Positions 3,213 to 43,337 of a stretch of DNA of 43,345 nt are shown here, in pieces. Position 1 is the stretch's first letter. The number at the start of each line of letters is the position of its first letter. Both the position numbers and the translations under genes were made by a program. Origin of the DNA: Bacteroidota bacterium (GTDB lineage: Bacteria; Bacteroidota; Rhodothermia; Rhodothermales; Rubricoccaceae); contig JADFQN010000007.1 in NCBI GenBank assembly GCA_022561755.1, forward strand, positions 1 through 43,345. Reading direction: 5' to 3'. Under the pieces are notes generated by a model. It saw only the letters and a list, made by a program, of their open reading frames with translations, made no database searches and had not been told where the DNA came from.

Positions 3213-3971
3213 TTAGTTCCGCGCAGCATCCGCCGCCGCCCCAACGATGGCAGCGAAGGCCTCCGCGTCGAGGCTGGCGCCGCCGATGAGGCCGCCGCCG
3301 ATATCCGGCTGGGCAAACAACTCGGCCGCGTTGCCTGGCTTCACGCTTCCGCCGTACAGGATCGGCACAGGCTCCTCTGCTCCAAAGCGAGCGGCCAGCT
3401 TCTCCCTGATGAAGGCATGCATGGCCTGCGCTTGCTCGGGCGTAGCGGTTCTACCCGTCCCGATAGCCCAAACAGGCTCGTAGGCCACGACCAGCGTGTT
3501 CCCGTGCCTCAACGAAACGCCGATCAGGCCGCCATCCAGTTGCCGCCCGACGACGGTTTCCGCTGCATCGCTATCGCGCTCTTCCAACGATTCCCCCACA
3601 CACAGGATGGGAGTCATGCCGTGCTTCATTACCTGCATCACCTTCTCCCCCACAAACGCATCCGACTCGTGGAAATGCCGGCGTCGCTCCGAGTGCCCTA
3701 CGATCACATACGTGCATCCGGCCTCACTTAACATTGTCGCCGAGACTTCGCCGGTGAAGGCTCCTTTCTCTTCCGGATGCACATTCTGGGCTCCCAGCGC
3801 CACGCGCGTCCCCCGAACGCGCTCACGCACCGCCTCCAGCCAGACCGACGGCGGGCAGACAGCGACGTCCACCGTGCGCGCGTCTGCGTCTGTTAGACGA
3901 ACCACTTCGGACGCCAGCCTGTCCGCTGCGCGGAGGTCCGTGTGCATTTTCCAGTTGCCGGCAACGAGCAT
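3213..3971 (-). CDS. tpiA: Triosephosphate isomerase
   Basis: It interconverts dihydroxyacetone phosphate and glyceraldehyde 3-phosphate in the cytoplasm (glycolysis and gluconeogenesis). The 252-residue protein has every family landmark: AGNWKMH at the N-terminus with the catalytic Lys, VGHSERR with the catalytic His near residue 95, the YEPVWAIGTG block with the catalytic Glu and the flexible lid, and the phosphate-binding YGGSVKP and GGLIGGASL loops near the C-terminus. The length is typical. The start ATG gives the canonical MLVAGNWKM opening. It is transcribed toward the GWxTD gene and is separated from it by a repetitive gap. Confidence 0.98.
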   Translation of the reverse strand: MLVAGNWKMHTDLRAADRLASEVVRLTDADARTVDVAVCPPSVWLEAVRERVRGTRVALGAQNVHPEEKGAFTGEVSATMLSEAGCTYVIVGHSERRRHFHESDAFVGEKVMQVMKHGMTPILCVGESLEERDSDAAETVVGRQLDGGLIGVSLRHGNTLVVAYEPVWAIGTGRTATPEQAQAMHAFIREKLAARFGAEEPVPILYGGSVKPGNAAELFAQPDIGGGLIGGASLDAEAFAAIVGAAADAARN

Positions 3972-4140: not shown

Positions 4141-4590
4141 ATGCGCCTCCGCCACCTCATCTTGCTTGTACCCGCCATCGCGCTGGCGGTGCTCGCCGCA
4201 GGCTGCGACGCGCTCGTCGACCGGCCTGGGCTAGCTCTGGAGTTTGGCGCGCCCTACAGCGTTCTGTTCGGCGAATCGGTAACAGCGGCAAACGGCCTTG
4301 TTCAGTCCACGCCCTTTACTGATGCGGGCGGAGCGCTCCACGTGGCCGTAGAGTTCACAGGAGGATGCGCCAATCATACGTTTCGCGCTGACTACACACT
4401 GGCAGAATCGGCGGCTACGATCTGGCTCGTCCATGCATCCAACGGCGACGCCTGCGAGGCACGGCTGATCGAAGAAGTAGTCGTTGCGCTGCCTACCGGT
4501 GTGCTCGAAAAGGCGCTGCTCGTCCTCGTCAGCCCCAGCGGGCGCGAGGAAACCATTGCGCGGTTCGATGCACCGATAGAGTCTCCCTAG
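4141..4590 (+). CDS. Small lipoprotein of unknown function
   Basis: A 149-residue protein with a clear lipoprotein signal: MRLRH, a hydrophobic stretch, then LAAGC with the lipidated Cys at residue 22. The mature part is acidic and beta-rich, with two further cysteines (GGCANH and DACEAR) that could form a disulfide. I chose ATG 4141 because it gives a standard signal peptide; the in-frame ATG at 4111 adds only ten residues. I recognise no family. The TAG stop at 4588-4590 is formed by the end of the type A repeat that follows, so the original C-terminus may have been fixed by that insertion. The gene converges on the peroxiredoxin gene. Confidence 0.7.
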   Translation: MRLRHLILLVPAIALAVLAAGCDALVDRPGLALEFGAPYSVLFGESVTAANGLVQSTPFTDAGGALHVAVEFTGGCANHTFRADYTLAESAATIWLVHASNGDACEARLIEEVVVALPTGVLEKALLVLVSPSGREETIARFDAPIESP

Positions 4591-4751
4591 GAGGCTGTTG
4601 AAATACTACGCCTTAAGCGAGGCGAGCGAATCTTGGCCAAGATCGAGGCGCGAAATCGCAGGCGAATCGGTGATTCGTCGAGTATTTCGCAACGCAAAGA
4701 TCGGGCAAGAGGCGCCGCCGCAGGTAGGTGGAGTTTTCAACAGCCTCCTAG
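4587..4751. repeat. Type A inverted-repeat element, full length (165 bp)
   Basis: The ends are CTAGGAGGCTGTTGAAA and its inverted partner TTTTCAACAGCCTCCTAG. The interior carries the family core, including cgaatcggtgattcg and a gcaacgcaaagatcggg block. It lies exactly between two convergent genes, and both take their TAG stop codon from its two ends. There is no coding potential. It is nearly identical to the copy at 12836-13001. Confidence 0.9.
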
Positions 4752-5221
4752 GCAGCCTCCGGCATCCGTTTCAGGATTTCCGCCGCGTGGTTCTCTGTTT
4801 TCGGCCGCCGGAAGACGTGGACGATCACTCCTTCCGGATCGATGAGGAAGGTGGTCCGCTTCGTGCCGGTGACCAGGTTCCCGTACAGGATTTTCTTCCC
4901 CCAGGTCCCGTAGGCGCTCATGATTGCTTTGTCGGGATCGGCGATGAGAGGGAACGGCAGGTCGAACTTGTTTACGAACTCGCCGTGCGATGCTACGTCA
5001 TCGGGCGAGACGCCGATCACGGCAATCCCCGCATCCATCAGGGATTTGTGATGGTCGCGCAGGTTGCAAGCCTGCCTCGTACAGAGCAGCGTGTCGTCTG
5101 CGGGGTAGAAGTAGAGGGCGACAAACTGGCCCTGATAATCTGCGAGAGAGATCGTGTCGCCCGTCTGGGTCGAGCCTTCAAATGCGGGGGCGAGGTCTCC
5201 CTTTTCGGGCATGGTGCTCAT
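4748..5221 (-). CDS. bcp: Thioredoxin-dependent peroxiredoxin, BCP/PrxQ type
   Basis: This enzyme reduces hydrogen and alkyl peroxides using a peroxidatic Cys, with thioredoxin as the electron donor. In the sequence YFYPADDTLLCTRQACNLRD the peroxidatic Cys is residue 47 and the resolving Cys residue 52, the five-residue spacing of the PrxQ subgroup. The usual DTPGCT reads DTLLCT here. The protein has 157 residues, normal for the family, and no signal peptide, so it is cytoplasmic. The TAG stop is contributed by the type A element at 4587-4751. A type B element lies directly upstream of the start, between this gene and surE. Confidence 0.95.
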   Translation of the reverse strand: MSTMPEKGDLAPAFEGSTQTGDTISLADYQGQFVALYFYPADDTLLCTRQACNLRDHHKSLMDAGIAVIGVSPDDVASHGEFVNKFDLPFPLIADPDKAIMSAYGTWGKKILYGNLVTGTKRTTFLIDPEGVIVHVFRRPKTENHAAEILKRMPEAA

Positions 5222-5235
5222 ACGTCGGCGGGTGT

Positions 5236-5399
5236 AGGAGTCTATCGGACTTAGGGGTTCGTGACGAGGCAGACGGGAAATCGAGAGCAGTTTTTCGATC
5301 TTTTGAGTTGCATAGTGGTGCCACGCGACGATAAAGATCGGAAAAATGGGCCGATTTGCCGCCGCCGCAGTAGAATCATCCTAAGTCCGATAGACTCCT
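5236..5399. repeat. Type B inverted-repeat element (164 bp)
   Basis: The terminal 20 bases, AGGAGTCTATCGGACTTAGG, are a perfect inverted repeat of the other end. The interior shows the type B hallmarks ttgagttgcatagtgg, aaagatcgg and atgggccgattt. It lies between bcp and surE. The surE reading frame runs into its right end and stops there. Confidence 0.9.
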
Positions 5400-7553: not shown

Positions 7554-7710
7554 GGTGCTATCCGGCGCGTTGACGCCGTGCAATGGAATTGGAACGGAAG
7601 GATACGACCTACCCTACCAAAAACGACGCGGACGGCAACACGCGTCGCCGCCCGCGATCCCATACGCGCGATTCAATAGACTCGTAGGGAATTGTGAGTC
7701 TGAAGTACCA
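7554..7710. other. Intergenic stretch upstream of panB
   Basis: These 157 bases between the panB start and the type C repeat contain no ORF that I can support and no clear hairpin. Any panB promoter would lie here, but I cannot point to convincing boxes. Confidence 0.4.
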
Positions 7711-9277: not shown

Positions 9278-11740
9278 TTATTGTGCCCCACCCAAGGAGA
9301 ACTGGAAACGCCATTGCGGTAAGCCGGAGTCGCCGGCGGAACGCGGCACGAAGGAATCAATCTGGTAGCCGTAATTGAGATCGAGCATACCCAGAATGGG
9401 CAGGAAGATGCGCGCGCCGAACCCGGCTGAACGGAAAAGCTGGCCAGGATTGTAGTCGTCAAAGCTATCCCAGGTGTTGGCCGCGTCAGCAAACAAGTAG
9501 GGTGCGAACGAGAACGCCTGCGACTGCACCGCAACTAGTTGCAATTCCGCCGAGTACTTGTTAAGGATGCGCCCGCCTACGTTTTCGCCACCCAACGTAG
9601 GTGAAATGGACTCGATGGGATAGCCGCGCATGAATACGAGATCCTTGCCGAATCCGCGGAACTGCCCCTGTGTATCGAGCGGGGAACCTCCGACGAGGAA
9701 TCGCTGAAACTGCACGTCGTCCCCCGTGAGCGACCCGATGTAGCCAAATCGGGTGCGAACGCTTAGCGAAAGACGGCCGGCCAACGGCGTGTACCACGCG
9801 TTCTGGAGATTCCACTTGTGATACTGGATGAAGCCCAATATCGGCGGCGCAACGGTCACAGAGAAGCTCAGGCTCGACCCGGCGGTGGGGAAGATCGGGT
9901 TGTCCAGAGAGTTCCGTGTCAAGCTCTGACGAACGGTAAACTCCTGGCTATTGCCCTCCGGAAGACCAAGCGAGTTGATGTTGTTCGCACCCGAAATGTT
10001 GTAAATGCGATACCCCAGGTCGGTGCCCGTCTGGAAGAAATCGTCCGGCCAGCTCAGGCTCTGGCGGTAAAACAGCCGCCCGAATCCGGAAGTAACCACA
10101 CTTTCGTCATCCGAACTGCTCTCGTAATAGGTAAACCCGACCGAGCCTCCCACAGGCGTACGCCGGCCGCGAAACCAGGGCTCCGTAAACGAGATGGAGT
10201 AGTTCTGGTAGCGCCGTCCGTTGGTCACTACCGACAGCGCCAACTGCTGCCCGTCGCCCGACGGCAGCGGCCTCCACGCCGATCCGTTGAACAGGTTCTG
10301 CATGGAGAAGTTGTTGAACGTCACACGCGCCTGCAGCAGCAGCCCGGTCGATCCGCCCCAACCGCCGGAGAGCTCCAACTGATCGCTGCCGGCTTCTGTA
10401 AGGTTATAGGCAAGGTCAACCGTCTTATCTTCCTCGTTGACAGATAGTTCCGGCCCATTCCCAAGGGTCGTTTGGTCGAAGTAGTTGAGTTGAATCAACT
10501 CGCGAACGGAACGCTCTAACGCCTGCCGGCTGTACGTCTGCCCAGGAATGGTTCGCAACTCGCGCCGGATTACGTGGTCCTTCGTCCGCGTATTGCCGCG
10601 AATGGTAATCTGCCCGAACTCATACACGTCGCCTTCCGTGATCTCGAAGAACAGGTCGAGCGAGTCGCCGGGAGCGTCGGTGATGGTATCGCGGATGTTG
10701 AACGTCAGGTACCCGCGATCGGAGTACAGGCTGGCAATGTCCGTGTGTTCCGCCGTGTAGAGAAGATTGCTTTCAAGCTGCGAGCGGTTGAACACGTCTC
10801 CCCGCTCAAAGCCGATGGCCTGAAGGAGCTGCGCGTCCGTAAACACGGTGTTGCCCTCGAACTCGATTTCGCGGACGAAGTACTGCGGGCCCTCCTCCAG
10901 TTCTATTTCAATAATCACGCCCTGGCTGCCGTCGGGCAGCTCCTGCAGGTACACGGAGTCGCGCACGACGCGTGCGCTGTAGTAGCCACGGTCGTTGTAG
11001 AAGCGGATGAGGTTCTGGAGGTCTTCCTCAAATTTCTCGTCCTCAAAGGTTTCGCGGCTCCAGAACCTCCACCAGCGATTTTCCGGCGTGTTCTTGAGGC
11101 GCTTGCGCAACGTGCCCTCGCCGAACACCTCGTTGCCGAAGAACTGGATATCCTGCACCTCCACACGCTGGCCCTTGTTAACGGTAAACACCAACTCTAC
11201 GCGACCGGTCTCCTCGTCCACCCGTCGGTCGACGTCAACGGTGATGAGCCGGTATCCCTTAGCGCGCAAATAATCTTGAATGACGCGAATGCTGCGGCCG
11301 ATCTCTGATGGGCGGACTGCGCGGCCCCGGAGCAGCGGCAGTTCGTCTTCGAGGTCGCTGCGCTCCCCCCCGCTCACTCCCTCGATGGTGTAGCCGCCCA
11401 GCCGAGGCTCTTCCACAACGCGAATCAGTAGGAACACACCGTCGCCTACCATCCTGTCGGCAACGATTTCTACCTCCGAGAAGAGCCCGCCCCGGTAGAG
11501 CTTGCGGATGGCTTCGCCAAAAGCCTCGTCGTACGGGAGCACCACCCGCTGCCCGACCTGCAAACCACTTACCTGTACTATAAACTGAACCGAGTTGGAG
11601 TCAGCGGCGCCCTCAACGTCAAGCGACAGAATCTCGTACCGCGCTACTGCCGACGCTGTACTCTGTTGCGCCAGAGCGGCGGGCACGAGGCCCGCACCGA
11701 CGAGAACGAGACCGGCGAGCAAAAGGGCGAAACGGGACAT
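9278..11740 (-). CDS. bamA: Outer membrane protein assembly factor BamA
   Basis: BamA is the pore-forming core of the BAM complex, which folds and inserts beta-barrel proteins into the outer membrane. The 820-residue protein has a signal peptide (ending ALAQQ) and a run of POTRA domains over about residues 25-430. Typical turns are seen, such as VQDIQFFGNEVFGEGTLR, VREIEFEGNTVFTDAQLL and FGQITIRGNTRTKDHVI. A 16-strand barrel follows. The conserved VRGF-type loop appears as QFRGFGKDLVFMRGYP, then GGRILNKYSAEL. The C-terminus ends FQFSLGGAQ rather than in a bare aromatic residue. It is followed by two Skp paralogues and preceded by uppS, the classic order of this envelope cluster. Confidence 0.97.
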   Translation of the reverse strand: MSRFALLLAGLVLVGAGLVPAALAQQSTASAVARYEILSLDVEGAADSNSVQFIVQVSGLQVGQRVVLPYDEAFGEAIRKLYRGGLFSEVEIVADRMVGDGVFLLIRVVEEPRLGGYTIEGVSGGERSDLEDELPLLRGRAVRPSEIGRSIRVIQDYLRAKGYRLITVDVDRRVDEETGRVELVFTVNKGQRVEVQDIQFFGNEVFGEGTLRKRLKNTPENRWWRFWSRETFEDEKFEEDLQNLIRFYNDRGYYSARVVRDSVYLQELPDGSQGVIIEIELEEGPQYFVREIEFEGNTVFTDAQLLQAIGFERGDVFNRSQLESNLLYTAEHTDIASLYSDRGYLTFNIRDTITDAPGDSLDLFFEITEGDVYEFGQITIRGNTRTKDHVIRRELRTIPGQTYSRQALERSVRELIQLNYFDQTTLGNGPELSVNEEDKTVDLAYNLTEAGSDQLELSGGWGGSTGLLLQARVTFNNFSMQNLFNGSAWRPLPSGDGQQLALSVVTNGRRYQNYSISFTEPWFRGRRTPVGGSVGFTYYESSSDDESVVTSGFGRLFYRQSLSWPDDFFQTGTDLGYRIYNISGANNINSLGLPEGNSQEFTVRQSLTRNSLDNPIFPTAGSSLSFSVTVAPPILGFIQYHKWNLQNAWYTPLAGRLSLSVRTRFGYIGSLTGDDVQFQRFLVGGSPLDTQGQFRGFGKDLVFMRGYPIESISPTLGGENVGGRILNKYSAELQLVAVQSQAFSFAPYLFADAANTWDSFDDYNPGQLFRSAGFGARIFLPILGMLDLNYGYQIDSFVPRSAGDSGLPQWRFQFSLGGAQ

Positions 11741-12781: not shown

Positions 12782-12835
12782 GGCGTCTTACGATTCACTA
12801 GGGCCAGAAAGTACGGCGGAGATCGCTCCTCTACC

Positions 12836-13001
12836 CTAGGAGGCTGTTGAAATACTACGCCGTAAGCGAGGCGCGCGAATCTTGGCCGAGATCAAGGCGC
12901 GAAATCGCAGGCGAATCGGTGATTCGTTGAGTATTTCGCAACGCAGAGATCGGGCAAGAGGCGTCGCCGCAGATAGGTGGAGTTTTTCAACAGGCTCCTA
13001 G
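12836..13001. repeat. Type A inverted-repeat element, full length (166 bp)
   Basis: The ends CTAGGAGGCTGTTGAAA and TTTCAACAGGCTCCTAG differ by one base from perfect inversion. The interior closely matches the copy at 4587-4751 (cgaatcggtgattcg, gtatttcgcaacg). It lies between uppS and rseP and supplies the rseP TAG stop. Confidence 0.9.
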
Positions 13002-14407
13002 CCAAACCACCGGACGGCGTCGTTGAAAATGACAAACGCCATGAACGCGAGCAGGAGAACGAAGCCCACCTGCTGCACCACCATGCGAAACTTGACGCTC
13101 GGCTCGCGGCGCGTGATGCCCTCGTAGATGAGGAAAATGAGGTGCCCTCCGTCCAGCACGGGGATCGGCAGGATGTTGAAGATGGCAAGGGCGATGGAGA
13201 GCACGGCAACGATGTTCCAGAAGCCACGCGCCCCGGTATCCGCCGCCTCCTTGGTGGCCTTGGCGATGATGAGCGGCCCGCCAACCGACTCCCGGAAGTT
13301 CTCGCGCCCTGTGATGAGGCGCCCCACGAACTCCGCATAAAACGATGTGAGCGCCCAAGCCTCGTGAACCCCGGCCTTCACACCGTCAATCAGACCATAA
13401 CGCTCGTGCTCAACCAAAATGGCGGAGGGGTCGGGATATACGCCAACGGCATAGGAGCCATCTCCCTTTTCTTCGGGAGTGAGCGTGGCCTCGTAGAACG
13501 CGAATCCGCCTTCCTGAGCTACCGGAGCAGGATCATCGGCCAGAACCAACGAGTCGAGGCGCGACCAGCGTAAGAGCATCGAACCGCCGTCGGCTTGCTG
13601 AACGGCTGCAACCAATTCCACCCAATACGCCACATCCTGGCTGTCGATGGCGACGATACGGTCGCCGCCGCGAAGGCCTGCTTCCTCGGCCGGAGACCCC
13701 GGCACCGTCGCGCCGATCTGCGACGGCTCAATCGAGAAGCCAAAAGCTTCAAGCCCTCCCTCAGCCTGCGTACTACTCAATTCGGAAACCAGCCGATCCG
13801 GCCCTTCCATCGTCAGCGTGTCGCCTCCGCGCTCCACGGACATGAAGTAGGGGTTCGCCGAGAGAGCGCGCGGTGAGAGGATGTCGTCAAAGCGGTCCAG
13901 CCTTTCGCCATTGACGCCAACAATGCGGTCGCCGGTGCGGACGCCCATGTTGTAGGCCACCGACGAATCGGCCACATAGACGCCCTGCACGCTCTCGGCG
14001 GGTACGTACGCCTTGCCGTAGAAGAGCGCCAGCCCGATGAAGATGAGGAACGCGAAAATCATATTGAAGATGACCCCGCCGGAGATCACCACTATCCGCT
14101 GCCACACCGGCTTCGACCGGAACTCGTCGAGCTTCGGCTCCGACTCCATAAAATCGGTGTCCATGCTCTCGTCAATCATCCCGGCAATCTTGACGTAGCC
14201 GCCGAGCGGCACGGCGCCTATCCGATATTCGGTCTCGCCGATTTGCTTCCGCCAGACCACAGGAGGGAAACCGATGGAGAACGCATCAACGCGCATCCCG
14301 AAAAAGCGCGCTAAGAGGAAGTGCCCCAGCTCGTGGATGAAAACCAGAATCCCGAGTGCTAACGCAACCCAGAAGAAATACGAAAGGAAGTTGAGAACGG
14401 CGTCCAT
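12998..14407 (-). CDS. rseP: Site-2 intramembrane zinc metalloprotease RseP
   Basis: RseP-type proteases cleave anti-sigma factors and signal peptides within the inner membrane. The N-terminal helix carries FIHELGHFLLARFFG with the HExxH zinc site (here HELGH). GGYVKIAGMIDE follows, then two PDZ domains (about residues 120-320, with phrases such as NMGVRTGDRIVGVNGE and EAGLRGGDRIVAID). The third metal ligand sits in NILPIPVLDGGHLIF near residue 420. Length 469 residues. The TAG stop at 12998-13000 is formed by the end of the type A element, so the native last residues may be lost or unchanged. It lies between dxr and uppS. Confidence 0.96.
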   Translation of the reverse strand: MDAVLNFLSYFFWVALALGILVFIHELGHFLLARFFGMRVDAFSIGFPPVVWRKQIGETEYRIGAVPLGGYVKIAGMIDESMDTDFMESEPKLDEFRSKPVWQRIVVISGGVIFNMIFAFLIFIGLALFYGKAYVPAESVQGVYVADSSVAYNMGVRTGDRIVGVNGERLDRFDDILSPRALSANPYFMSVERGGDTLTMEGPDRLVSELSSTQAEGGLEAFGFSIEPSQIGATVPGSPAEEAGLRGGDRIVAIDSQDVAYWVELVAAVQQADGGSMLLRWSRLDSLVLADDPAPVAQEGGFAFYEATLTPEEKGDGSYAVGVYPDPSAILVEHERYGLIDGVKAGVHEAWALTSFYAEFVGRLITGRENFRESVGGPLIIAKATKEAADTGARGFWNIVAVLSIALAIFNILPIPVLDGGHLIFLIYEGITRREPSVKFRMVVQQVGFVLLLAFMAFVIFNDAVRWFG

Positions 14408-21790: not shown

Positions 21791-21976
21791 CTAGGAGGCT
21801 GTTGAATTACGTCGTCCTGCCTTCCCGCCATGCGGCGGGACTCTCGGCCGATCTCTTCGTTGTGAGATGCCCGCCGAATCACCGATTCGACTACGATATC
21901 GCGCCTTGATCTCAACCGAGATACGCCCCGCACTTGCTGCGGGATTTCGGGGAGCACGTAATTCAACAGCCTCCTA
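21791..21976. repeat. Type A element, full length variant (186 bp)
   Basis: The ends are CTAGGAGGCTGTTGAATTACG and CGTAATTCAACAGCCTCCTA. It is inverted relative to the 4587 copy (gaatcaccgattcg core, gcgccttgatctc) and contains extra small hairpins, cccgccatgcggcggg and ccccgcacttgctgcggg. It lies between the convergent reductase and sulfotransferase genes. Confidence 0.9.
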
Positions 21977-29535: not shown

Positions 29536-29700
29536 AATGAGGCTGTTGAAGTACCTCATCCTGCCTGCGACGGCGCCTCTCGGCCGATCTCTTTGTTGCG
29601 AGATGCTCGGCGAATCACCGATTCGACTGCGATCTCGCGCCTTGATCTCGGTCGAGATGCACTCGTCTCGGCGACAGAGCAGGTAATTCAACAACCTCTT
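29535..29700. repeat. Type A element, full length (166 bp), upstream of the UPF0104 gene
   Basis: TAATGAGGCTGTTGAAGTACC at the left and GGTAATTCAACAACCTC at the right show slightly diverged ends. The core gaatcaccgattcg, ctcgcgccttgatctc and cgacagagcagg matches the copy at 38962 in opposite orientation. It starts at the T-run of the preceding terminator and ends 15 bases before the next gene. Confidence 0.88.
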
Positions 29701-38961: not shown

Positions 38962-39129
38962 CTAAGAGGCTGTTGAATTACGTGCTCTGTCGCCGAGACG
39001 AGCGCATCTCGGTTGGGATCAAGGCGCGAGATCGTCGTCGAATCGGTGATTCGGCGAGCATCTCGCAACGAAGAGATCGGCCGAGAGGCGCCGTCACAGG
39101 CAGGATGACGTATTTCAACAGCCTCCTAA
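38962..39129. repeat. Type A element, full length (168 bp)
   Basis: CTAAGAGGCTGTTGAATTACG and TTTCAACAGCCTCCTAAG are the ends. The core cgaatcggtgattcggcgagcatctcgcaacgaagagatcgg lies in the same orientation as at 4587 and opposite to 29535. It occupies the divergent gap between the lipocalin-like gene and the Rieske chimera. Confidence 0.9.
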
Positions 39130-39171: not shown

Positions 39172-40101
39172 ATGCCTGTAACAGCAACCTCGCCATCGCA
39201 GTTGACGTGGACCAAAGTCCTCGGGCCCGATGAATTGCCTGAGGGTCGTGTATTACCCGTCACCTGCGCGCTCACAACAGTGTGCATGACGCACTTTGAA
39301 GGCGAGTATGGTGCTCTGGATAATCACTGCCCCTATCAAGGCGGTCCGCTCGGGGAGGGCTCCATCGAGAAGGGTTTGCTACGCTGCCCGTGGCATGGAT
39401 GGGACTACCATCCTCTCACCGGCACGCCTGCTATCAGTCCGTCGCGTTTCCCAGACCTTGCGAGCGTTGAGGACTTTCGGCGCGTGGCCGATGAGGTCCG
39501 CGAGGAAAGCGGCGGCATCCCCATCGGGTTCAAGTTATCTGCCCAGCACATCGAGGCCGACATCGACTTTGCTCTCGATGTCACAGTCGACTACATCATC
39601 CTCGACGGGCGAGGCGGGGCAACCGGGGCGGCGCCGGAGATTTTCAAGAACAACATTTCGGTTCCGACACTTGCTGCACTTGCGCGGGCTCGCCGGCATC
39701 TTAACAAGCGCGGTGCAGACGGGGTCACACTGATCATCACGGGCGGCCTGCGAACCGAATCCGATTTCGTAAAGGCGCTCGCCCTCGGCGCCGACGGAGT
39801 TGCCGTAGCGAACTCGGCTCTTCAAGCCATCGGCTGTCTCGGCATGCGTGCCTGCCACACGAATAACTGTCCGGTTGGCATTGCCACACAGAAGCCGAGT
39901 CTACGTGCGCGTCTGGAGATCGCAGCATCAGCGCGGCAACTGGCGAATTTCTTCGAAGCCACGGTCCACCTCATGCAGATTCTCGCACGCGCCTGCGGGC
40001 ACGATCAACTCAGCGGATTCAATACCAACGACCTGACGACGTGGAAACGGGACATCGCACATTTGACGGGGGTGAGATATGCAGGGGTGGAGCCGGATTG
40101 A
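39172..40101 (+). pseudogene. Rieske / glutamate-synthase (FMN) chimeric ORF, probably a deletion fusion
   Basis: Residues 1-85 form a Rieske [2Fe-2S] start of the type found before TPP-dependent enzymes: MPVTATSPSQLTWTKVLG, LDNHCPYQGGPLGEGS and LRCPWHGWDYHPLTGTP. From AISPSRFPDLASVEDFRRV onward it is the C-terminal half of an FMN-binding glutamate synthase-like protein: IPIGFKLSAQHIEADIDF, YIILDGRGGATGAAP, the [3Fe-4S] motif CLGMRACHTNNC and LTTWKRDIAHLTGVRYAG. The rest of the Rieske domain, any TPP domain and the first half of the glutamate synthase barrel are missing. The first Rieske CxH motif reads CPY, losing a His ligand. I read the ORF as a chimera from an in-frame deletion joining two genes, and its product as probably non-functional. 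An assembly join is also possible. Confidence 0.7.
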
Positions 40102-40161
40102 AGTCGGATCGTGAGGCCGTAACAGATTCAGAGGGGTGTTTCAGTCATGGCGAGATGCTTG

Positions 40162-40291
40162 GAATAACATTGGTGGGTTCACGTTGAGGCATGACGGATC
40201 GCACCTTCACTTGCGGCAAGGGCCAACTAGGATTCTCGATCTAGGATGGCGGTCGCAGCCCGCAGCCGTCAAGTGCAGGGCGATGTTATGC
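40162..40291 (-). other. attC-like recombination site 2 (130 bp), candidate
   Basis: Read on the minus strand it starts GCATAAC and ends GTTATTC, the R'' and R' boxes. ATAACAT and ATGTTAT pair. The inner CACTTGA/TCAACGTG arms pair with one bulged base, and an apical GCCA-CTAG stem caps the structure. It is a long imperfect hairpin as in large attC sites. The single bulge lies on the opposite arm from the one expected for minus-strand polarity, so orientation is uncertain. It lies 62 bases after the stop of the 98-residue cassette protein. Confidence 0.5.
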
Positions 40292-40353
40292 GGCGTCCGA
40301 CGGACCTCAGAAAGCGTGGATACGAAGACCCATTTCATTGAAGCGCGTCGAGC

Positions 40354-40650
40354 TCACGCCTGCGAGTATTTCTTGATCGCCTCGAGATAAGTGCGCTCGC
40401 TCTCATCCTTGAACTTTCCCTTGCTGTCCTTAAGGGCATTGAGCTTCTCGTAGATGCTGTTATAGATGATGCGTTGTGCTTGATTTGAGAGATTCTGATC
40501 CTCGATAGGGTCCAAATCAACATCCTCACTTAGAAACAAGTCCAGCAACTTTAGCAATTGCTCCTTGTCGATCTCATCAATCGGTTTCCAGTCGTCCTTC
40601 TCGTCGACTCTAAAGAGGCCGCTACCCTTTTCAATGCTTAAGATCTTCAT
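40354..40650 (-). CDS. Small partner protein of the PHP-ATPase
   Basis: A 98-residue acidic protein without signal or membrane segment. MKILSIEKGSGLFRVD at the N-terminus looks like two beta strands. KPIDEIDKEQLLKLLDLFL, then NQAQRIIYNSIYEKLNAL and DESERTYLEAIKKYS, look like helices. I do not recognise a named family. The start ATG 40650 lies inside the last codons of the PHP-ATPase gene, overlapping by 20 bases, so it is translationally coupled and almost certainly acts with it. ATG 40668 and 40677 are alternatives. AT-rich like its partner. The TGA stop is followed 62 bases later by an attC-like site. Confidence 0.75.
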   Translation of the reverse strand: MKILSIEKGSGLFRVDEKDDWKPIDEIDKEQLLKLLDLFLSEDVDLDPIEDQNLSNQAQRIIYNSIYEKLNALKDSKGKFKDESERTYLEAIKKYSQA

Positions 40651-42655
40651 AGCCTCGCCTCCGTTCATTGTACGCATCCTCGCCAGCCTCCAAACAGCCC
40701 ATCGTAACTTCCCAGTTATCTAGGCTCTTCCCGTCTGGAGTGCGCAGTTGCTTGTTGGCAGGGAAGCCTGAATAAATGCGATAGCAGATTTCTTCATCCA
40801 CGAGCTCCTTTCTGGTGCATAGAAGGTAGTTTGGTTTGATAGATGCCCCGACTGTGTTGTTATGTGTTACCAGAACGACTGGCATATGTTCGGCAAGATC
40901 CTTGATAATTACGTTCACTTCAGATTTTAGAAAAAGGTTGTCAAACGACGACTCCGGCTCATCGATCAATAGCATTTCATACCTCTGGGCGTCCTCAATT
41001 TCCTGGAGGAGGTTGAATTCAGATCTCTCACCGCCAGACACTTCAAAGCCATCCTTATTGAGGATCTTGTAATCAATCTTGGCGAAGTACTTGCTAAGGT
41101 CAGCTTCTTCCAAACCGTCGATCTCCCGAAGTTCCTGCAAGTACCTATACGGGTGTTTGTACAACTTGAACGCCCCGCTGAACTTACTCTTGAGTCTGCT
41201 CAATTCTTTCAGCTCACTCGCTCCCTGGAAATCTCTGACGCTCGCGACGATCTCGAAGCCCTGAAGTCGTTTGCGCATTATCTCTCGTTGAACCCTTGCC
41301 GATTGTACAGCTCGTTCGAACCTAACCACTTTGTTGCGGTTCATGGCTATGCCATAAAGATCAACGTCTTCTATTGTTGTGGCGGCGGATTTTCTTCGTA
41401 ATTTTCCTTTTGTCTCCGTTACCAGGTCGTTGACCCACACCTTTTTCAATCGGAGCAGCTCTCGCTTGCTGTACTCTAGCATCAACTCCACAATCAAAGC
41501 CTTTAGGCCGTCCAGCGACACGTGCTTCTCTATCATCTCTCGAAATTCAACATTTTCAATTAGGTTCTGAGTTGATTCGATTAGATCGAATATGTTTTTC
41601 TGTTTGAGGATGGCAAATTTCTCCTCCCGAAACAAACTTGCTTTGGAGTATGCGTCGTGCTTCTCTATTTCATTTGCAAATTTCTTAAGTGAGCGCAAGT
41701 ATTCGGACACCGACCTTGAGTCGGTTTCAAGATCGACGTCCAGAACATCGTTAATCACGACTTGAAGCTCCTCAAGATACCCTCGAGAATGCAAACTGTG
41801 TTCTTCGCGAAGGAACCTGCTAAATCGCTTTTCGTCCTGCTTCTCATCGCGTTCCACTAGTGAAAACTGTTTGATGTACTTCACGTTCTCGAATTCTTCG
41901 CAAATGCGCTTCAGTGTATGCGACTTGCCTGACGATCTCTCTCCGATGATTACGTTCAGGCTGGTTGACAGCATCTGACCGTCATCAAAGATCTGAAATG
42001 TCTTACTGCCATCGCTCTCAGACAACGAAACTTTGCTCTTGTCTCGAAGGCAGCTCCTTATTGCGGAGAAACTCGCCTCATCACATGCGACATAGGTTTG
42101 TCGGACGGGAAACGTGAGCAAATTTTCGTCGATCCTACAGTCGCTGAAATAGACAGGGACTAGCCGCTCTTGGCCCTTAAGCCAGTAGACGAATTTCTTC
42201 ACGCTCGACACCTCGCCCGCCGTTACGAATTGCTGGAGCTTGAGTAAAGTGTGCTCCTTGAGCTGTGGCTTCTTGTCGTAGTGCGGAATCAGGATGTACT
42301 TGGCAAGGTCTCCATATATTTGTATCAATTGTTCAACCGTGATAGAGCTCTTCTTCGTTGGGCGCAGTTTGGTGATTTCCTGGCATTTCTCATCGAAGTC
42401 TTTGAGATCGGACCCGTCCGCGATCAAGAGCAACTGGCCGCCCTCGAGATCGATCTCGATCCCGGGGAGAACCAACTTCCTAATACCTGCCTTGATTATC
42501 TCAAATTGCTTAAGGGAAAATTGATTGTGATTCGTTATCGCGATACAATCGAGATATCTGACACGTACATAATCTTTCAGTCGCTTAAGACTAAAGGTGA
42601 AAGCGGCATCGCTAGGAGTGGATAGTGTATGAATATGAAAGTCTATTTTGATCAT
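40631..42655 (-). CDS. PHP-domain / ABC-SMC-type ATPase, candidate defence protein
   Basis: The N-terminal PHP phosphoesterase domain (residues 1-150) has HIH at residues 7-9, ITNHN with His 43, PGIEI with Glu 67 and IPHYD with His 125, all expected metal ligands; the usual TDHN reads TNHN. The ATPase begins with Walker A GERSSGKS at 238-245. A charged coiled-coil region (about 270-520) resembling SMC/Rad50/RecF-type ATPases follows. The signature SGGERS starts at 540, Walker B LLIDEPESSFDN near 562 and the H-loop VLVTHNN at 598. Known relatives combine PHP nuclease or phosphoesterase activity with an ABC ATPase, and TrlF is a similar protein. ATG 42655 is chosen (GTG 42667 would add four residues). 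Far more AT-rich than the chromosome around it; flanked by attC-like sites. Confidence 0.85.
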   Translation of the reverse strand: MIKIDFHIHTLSTPSDAAFTFSLKRLKDYVRVRYLDCIAITNHNQFSLKQFEIIKAGIRKLVLPGIEIDLEGGQLLLIADGSDLKDFDEKCQEITKLRPTKKSSITVEQLIQIYGDLAKYILIPHYDKKPQLKEHTLLKLQQFVTAGEVSSVKKFVYWLKGQERLVPVYFSDCRIDENLLTFPVRQTYVACDEASFSAIRSCLRDKSKVSLSESDGSKTFQIFDDGQMLSTSLNVIIGERSSGKSHTLKRICEEFENVKYIKQFSLVERDEKQDEKRFSRFLREEHSLHSRGYLEELQVVINDVLDVDLETDSRSVSEYLRSLKKFANEIEKHDAYSKASLFREEKFAILKQKNIFDLIESTQNLIENVEFREMIEKHVSLDGLKALIVELMLEYSKRELLRLKKVWVNDLVTETKGKLRRKSAATTIEDVDLYGIAMNRNKVVRFERAVQSARVQREIMRKRLQGFEIVASVRDFQGASELKELSRLKSKFSGAFKLYKHPYRYLQELREIDGLEEADLSKYFAKIDYKILNKDGFEVSGGERSEFNLLQEIEDAQRYEMLLIDEPESSFDNLFLKSEVNVIIKDLAEHMPVVLVTHNNTVGASIKPNYLLCTRKELVDEEICYRIYSGFPANKQLRTPDGKSLDNWEVTMGCLEAGEDAYNERRRGYEDLKH

Positions 42656-42844
42656 ATTTCCCGACACACTCGTTTATCGCATCGAGTAAGCAGCTTATCC
42701 GACATGTATCGAACACGGCCGGTCGGTGATCTGCTTGATGGAGGACCGGCTAATGCGGGAGCGGGCTGCATTCTAATGTCAGTTGGATTGGTTGCGCCAG
42801 GGCAGAGCTTGGAAGTCGATTTGAATGCTGTGAGGTTGTGAGCC

Positions 42845-42914
42845 GCATAACGGAGTCGCGGTTAAGCGTCACTTCCCAGATGGGAAGGTGTACGGCTTCA
42901 ACCGCTGGTTATGA
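42845..42914 (-). other. attC-like recombination site 3 (70 bp), strong candidate
   Basis: Read on the minus strand: TCATAAC (R''), a five-base spacer, GTTGAAGC (L''), a hairpin, GCTTAAC (L'), a nine-base spacer and GTTATGC (R'). The L boxes differ from those of the aadA1 attC site in one base. Positions 42859-42878 pair with 42881-42904 in a 20-base stem. That stem has four single unpaired bases (42887, 42891, 42894, 42899), all on one arm, the L'' side. One-sided extrahelical bases are a hallmark of folded attC sites. It lies 52 bases after the stop of the membrane-protein gene on the right. Confidence 0.78.
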
Positions 42915-42965: not shown

Positions 42966-43337
42966 CTAGCTGCCCTCGCTCGCTGGTGTAGCAGGCTTTC
43001 TCAGCCGTGCGCCGATAAACCCCCCGAGACACGCGGCTACAAGGCCGGAAGCGAGGAAGGGCAAGTCGTCCCTAAAGAAGGATCCGAATTGTCCAGAGGA
43101 AATCAGGCCGATCGTGACGAGTAGCAAACCGGGGGCAACTACCCACAACCCCCATCTCCAGGCACCACCCGGCCAGAGGGTGCCGATGAGTAGCCCCGCA
43201 GCACCGAAAATGGCTGTTGAAATGAGGATCGCTGTGGCGAAAGACGGCGACTCCAATGGCAGGTTGGCTGGCGCGAACGCCGCGAGGAGACCGAGGAGGA
43301 CGGCGATCGCGTAGGCGAAGCGTGGCTGCCGGTTCAT
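42966..43337 (-). CDS. Small four-helix membrane protein, cassette-borne, hypothetical
   Basis: A 123-residue hydrophobic protein with about four transmembrane helices: AYAIAVLLGLLAAFAPANL, TAILISTAIFGAAGLLIGTL, GLWVVAPGLLLVTIGLI and FLASGLVAACLGGFIGARLR. It ends in a short polar tail. I recognise no family. It reads in the same direction as the PHP-ATPase, and its stop is followed at 52 bases by the strong attC-like site, so it is probably the gene of a separate cassette in the same array. More cassettes may lie beyond the right edge. Confidence 0.7.
   Translation of the reverse strand: MNRQPRFAYAIAVLLGLLAAFAPANLPLESPSFATAILISTAIFGAAGLLIGTLWPGGAWRWGLWVVAPGLLLVTIGLISSGQFGSFFRDDLPFLASGLVAACLGGFIGARLRKPATPASEGS

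Follow-up and report, generated by a model that had tools for sequence, protein, structure and literature searches.

A two-gene PDC-M49 candidate defence unit very probably carried as a single integron cassette in Rubricoccaceae

Integron cassettes carrying anti-phage systems were published in 2025 (Science 10.1126/science.ads0768 and 10.1126/science.ads0915; Nat Microbiol 10.1038/s41564-025-01927-7; cited in PMC12444791), and cassettes with two open reading frames were already known (PMC12444791, PMC8618304). Clusters of attC sites lacking an integrase are termed CALIN (IntegronFinder 2.0, PMC9024848), and PDC denotes a phage defence candidate (PMC11514479). A literature search under the name PDC-M49 found no paper naming this candidate system, and none combining integron and Rhodothermales was found. 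The locus described here lies at the right end of a 43,345-nt contig of a Rubricoccaceae bacterium (the window, analysed over its whole length), where a PDC-M49 gene pair stands between two integron-type recombination sites, labelled attC 1 and attC 2. Since these sites flank the pair, it was very probably captured as one cassette, and we hold with high confidence that positions 40195–42850 are a single integron cassette with a two-gene candidate defence unit, the last of its array.

Integrases of the IntI type recombine the folded bottom strand of an attC site into attI or another attC, and in a cassette that has circularised, the 5' end pairs with the R'' box of that same cassette. Read along the minus strand, the right end of the window consists of a membrane-protein gene (43337–42966), attC 1, a 195-nt leader, M49A, M49B and attC 2, beyond which a Rieske/glutamate-synthase-like gene lies on the opposite strand. 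The cassette body (40195–42850, minus strand) is 2,656 bp long, from the T after the G of the attC 1 R' box to the G of the attC 2 R' box. The sequence at its 5' end, GTTATGCGGC, and that at its own R'' box, GCCGCATAAC, are reverse complements of each other, with all 10 bases matching. Among eight further cassettes in the own genome, six have 8–10 bases matching in this way, and the remaining two have 3 and 5. The unit thus combines its own 3' attC with R''-L''-hairpin-L'-R' arms (R' degenerate, GTC), complementary ends, and the gene orientation and spacing of a cassette. The first-pass annotation had described the genes around attC 1 as reading in the same direction, with stops 50–65 bases ahead of an R'' box as in cassettes, and both statements hold: the membrane-protein gene, M49A and M49B are all on the minus strand, and the stop-to-R'' distance is 62 nt for M49B and 51 nt for the membrane-protein gene before attC 1. 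Its description of the pair as AT-rich is true in relative terms only, with a GC content of 48% in the cassette against 60% in the window. A search of the coding strand of the leader recognised no promoter. The membrane-protein gene (123 aa, 42966–43337, minus strand) belongs to the preceding cassette, whose start is off the contig, and its product resembles DUF3792/TIGR04086 below both cut-offs. The contig ends at 43345, inside the array, which therefore runs off it, and no overlap was found between this right end and another contig. Joining the window contig (C130) and contig C191 into one array was considered and dropped; other genes bound C191 on both sides.

The right-hand site, attC 1 (42845–42914, minus strand), forms the end of the upstream cassette. 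From 42914 to 42845 it is laid out as R'' TCATAAC (42914–42908), a 5-nt spacer, 3 nt, an unpaired G, L'' AAGCCG, the hairpin, L', a spacer and R' GTTATGC (42851–42845). We searched with an attC covariance model built from 24 trimmed sites, 11 from class-1 integron plasmids, 9 from integrons of family genomes and 4 from elsewhere in the own genome. This model is unable to span long hairpins, so a second was built from long sites; the window sites and the near-copies of attC 1 were left out of both training sets. Run unfiltered, the first model gives attC 1 as its top match in the 43-kb window (22.9 bits, E 0.0017; runner-up 11.8 bits, E 1.2); genome-wide, attC 1 taken alone has E = 0.12. The long-site model reports nothing in the window with default filters; unfiltered, over both strands, it ranks attC 1 first (E 0.00013) and attC 2 second. 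A Python search for the attC arm pattern, with 150 dinucleotide-shuffled windows as controls, scores attC 1 at 50.4 and attC 2 at 35.8, with the next candidate at 24.2; this arm scan shares the training set of the first model and is therefore not a fully independent method. Folding of attC 1 has a z-score of −5.2, and equal stability was reached in 0 of 200 shuffles. An Rfam search gave no match, and neither did a short DNA pattern for attC run on the own genome. The site first read at 42845–42914, with arms in the order R''-spacer-L''-hairpin-L'-spacer-R', is thus the best match of both covariance models in the window, and it passes the covariance-model check then proposed for it with models built without the window sites. 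Near-copies of attC 1, 97–99% identical, occur at C191:5038–5107, C191:7387–7456 and C99:11615–11684, with identity stopping at the R' box. In the window the site follows the membrane-protein gene, and at the three near-copies it forms the end of an ORF-less cassette of ~230 bp. This ORF-less cassette, with an attC almost identical to attC 1, was seen at 5038–5271 and 7387–7625 of C191 (L116) and at 11615–11867 of C99 (L157).

The left-hand site, attC 2 (40189–40291, minus strand), is the M49 cassette's own attC and the last in the array, with R'' GCATAAC at 40291–40285 and a degenerate R', GTCATGC, at 40195–40189. Its arm spacing, R''-5-3-1-6, is the same as that of attC 1. It is absent from the output of the first model and from the default-filtered output of the long-site model in the window; unfiltered, its second rank with the latter corresponds to 15.6 bits and E 0.042 (43 kb, both strands). 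In the arm scan, its score was reached by none of the 150 shuffled windows (peak 32.8). The left site had first been placed at 40162–40291; the second rank in both searches upholds the site itself, and its boundary moves by 27 bases, to a start at 40189. GTTATTC at 40162–40168 was tried as the left R' box and rejected, the R'' box pairing instead with GTCATGC. A degenerate R' at the final site of an array is also found in contig C29 (ATTATGC). The degenerate R' of this weak site probably recombines poorly.

The own assembly comprises 3.06 Mb in 198 contigs and is 88% complete. The window was initially read as lacking an integrase, which is correct, and an IntI search of this 88% complete genome gave no frame above the cut-off. 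Contigs C191, C29 and C99 each have an attC array beside a platform of 250–400 bp, consisting of an attI-like segment and the 5' part of an intI that then breaks off, and the attI-like part is present in C134. These sister arrays of the own genome carry a variety of further attCs together with attI-like sequences and remnants of intI. The search for IntI and further cassettes that the first-pass annotation suggested was successful for further arrays, on other contigs, and unsuccessful for a full IntI, the own-genome intI being truncated. Among family genomes, six of nine have an IntI above the curated cut-off, and in most of the family IntI copies examined the attC array lies on the attI side and reads away from intI (divergent). 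The platform copies lie at 7590–8000 of C191 (L116), 1154–855 of C29 (L127) and 13295–13604 of C99 (L157), the latter two being 78% and 76% identical to the first. In C191 and C29 the match breaks off at about one and the same codon of intI, which would fit duplication of an already truncated platform. At 3482–4733 of C54 (L158), a cassette-like gene resembling candidate PDC-S11 (E 1.6e-10) adjoins a weak attC and a tyrosine recombinase gene.

At its distal end the array borders a chromosomal flank gene (39172–40101, plus strand) that encodes 309 aa, with a Rieske domain and the C-terminal part of a glutamate-synthase-like domain. The congeneric genome G001 has the gene in synteny, on a contig that breaks off ~80 nt after it. 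The matching open frame in G001 has 695 aa, and of the glutamate-synthase domain the window copy retains the C-terminal half only; given these lengths, the window gene may be internally deleted. A 395-nt 3' fragment of the flank gene (window 39710–40104) recurs with 89% identity at 10334–10728 of C99 (L157). This is the distal end of the cassette array on C99, a placement suggestive of joint copying of integron and flank. A dispersed repeat of ~130–200 bp, ~78–96% identical between copies, occurs in the window at 38962–39128, 29539–29700, 21791–21976, 4586–4754 and 12831–13007, and also in C134, C81 and C180.

The larger protein, PDC-M49A (40631–42655, minus strand; 674 aa), is a putative PHP domain fused to an ABC-type ATPase and matches PADLOC model PDLC04680 over residues 1–673 of 674 (E 2.4e-281, 933 bits). 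The small partner, PDC-M49B (40354–40677, minus strand), has 107 aa, or 98 aa from an internal ATG at 40650, and matches PDLC04682 (E 4.7e-32). Adjacent M49A and M49B genes matching these models over nearly their full lengths are what PADLOC recognises as PDC-M49. M49B overlaps the end of M49A, and this order and overlap are common to the copies from Rhizobium, Phaeobacter, genome G209 and a viral contig. M49A has the PHP-type N-terminal motifs DFHIHT, TNHN and PGIE, followed by the ABC-type ATPase motifs GERSSGKS, VSGGERSEF, LLIDEPESSFDN and THNN. Compared with relatives from G209 (same class), Rhizobium and Phaeobacter plasmids and the viral contig, invariant elements are HxH, H43, E67, H125, D172, the Walker A motif GxRSSGK, the signature SGGER, LIDEPESSFDN and THN. 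The N-terminal half aligns with the TrlF-family AAA-like ATPase model NF045780 (E 1.6e-19), which likewise has a PHP-type N-terminus and then an ATPase; however, the 70.2 bits fall below the family cut-off of 350, and 674 aa stand against a model of 944 positions, making M49A a distant relative at most. A Pfam search of M49A gave no PHP match, and the PHP reading of the N-terminus rests on the motifs, the sub-cut-off TrlF alignment and the annotation of homologues. An AlphaFold model of M49A made from two sequences reached a pLDDT of 40, too poor for a fold search.

Homologues of the pair were obtained from plasmids, a genome search and an alignment-based scan of IMG/VR. Relatives with 36–50% identity occur on 57 plasmids (five genera; mostly Enterococcus and Staphylococcus) and one IMG/VR contig. 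Peptide-pattern scans with M49A alone, over genome contigs and viral contigs, returned no relatives. The first-pass annotation had allowed that the genes might be syntenic core genes. They are instead accessory, with no full-length match in 59 near relatives and the pair in 2 of 395 genomes of a phylum sample, its own included (1 of 394 others). The genes near some homologues include AbiH, an abortive-infection family gene, serine recombinases and a type I restriction-like gene. On viral contig IMGVR_UViG_3300033565_000054 (L164, 6001–10656), the pair has phage-like genes on one side and a type I restriction-like gene on the other. An attC scan at five homologue loci (G209, Rhizobium, Phaeobacter, Enterococcus and the viral contig) found no site.

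Could the two sites be hairpins formed by chance, or a small repeated element, and the pair an ordinary genomic island without site-specific recombination? The weakness of attC 2 would agree with this, as would the fact that attC 1 is one of four genomic copies of a repeat whose homology reaches 37 bp beyond R''. However, this repeat stops at the R' box, each copy stands before a different cassette, and the arms agree with an attC model whose training sites came from class-1 plasmid integrons and elsewhere. With the diverse attCs, attI-like sequences and intI remnants of the sister arrays and the complete match of the cassette ends, such an origin appears extremely improbable. Alternatively, the attCs would be real and the pair would have entered an existing cassette by transposon or illegitimate insertion, never having moved as a cassette. 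In favour of this, the unit is long for a cassette (2.66 kb), and no homologue with scanned surroundings lies between attC sites; yet no transposase and no remaining gene of an older cassette was noticed in the interval between the attCs, the 62-nt spacing from gene to attC is that of ordinary cassettes, and the ends match each other at every one of the ten positions, which leaves this history very unlikely. In the preferred reading, capture as one cassette, an IntI of the present or an earlier host would have mobilised the unit by recombining the folded bottom strand of its attC into the array at the G/TT of R'. With the integrase end beyond the contig and the intI remnants of the own genome truncated, the array may now be fixed.

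The function of the captured pair is a separate question, and anti-phage defence is its rather probable candidate. The pair is presumably expressed, and motifs and neighbourhood suggest a defence role in which the ATPase would switch a PHP phosphoesterase or nuclease. Most likely, M49A would sense or switch through its ABC ATPase, its PHP domain would be the effector (a metal-dependent phosphoesterase or nuclease), and M49B would serve as regulator or adaptor. A metabolic or DNA-repair role for a PHP-ATPase pair that is nonetheless a cassette is a lesser possibility to be taken seriously, as defence is deduced from the PADLOC candidate list and gene neighbourhoods only. Against such a role speak the patchy spread, the occurrence on plasmids, a viral contig and a cassette, and the defence-type genes that adjoin in several places. 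A broader and more doubtful scenario is that PDC-M49 is a working phage defence that moves as a complete two-gene cassette in Rubricoccaceae, that the platform of attI and truncated intI was copied to several chromosomal sites, and that the surviving arrays are dispersed stores of defence and adaptation served in trans by an IntI elsewhere.

Compared with known systems, the proteins of the window resemble PADLOC PDC-M49 over nearly their full length, with gene order and overlap as in other copies, whereas the position between attC sites is shared with no other copy whose surroundings were scanned. The locus resembles a CALIN in that its contig has a pair of attC sites without an integrase; unlike in a CALIN, the window contig ends inside the array, so that an integrase may lie beyond its end. 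Like the defence cassettes of 2025, it holds defence-type genes that are joined to an attC and retained within an integron array. Those cassettes belong to Vibrio or to mobile integrons, whereas here a 2.66-kb two-gene PHP-ATPase candidate is found in Rubricoccaceae (Rhodothermota). The example suggests that a complete defence system of several genes and over 2.5 kb can fit into one cassette. As both defence cassettes and two-ORF cassettes were already known, the window cassette is a new and unusually long example rather than a new principle.
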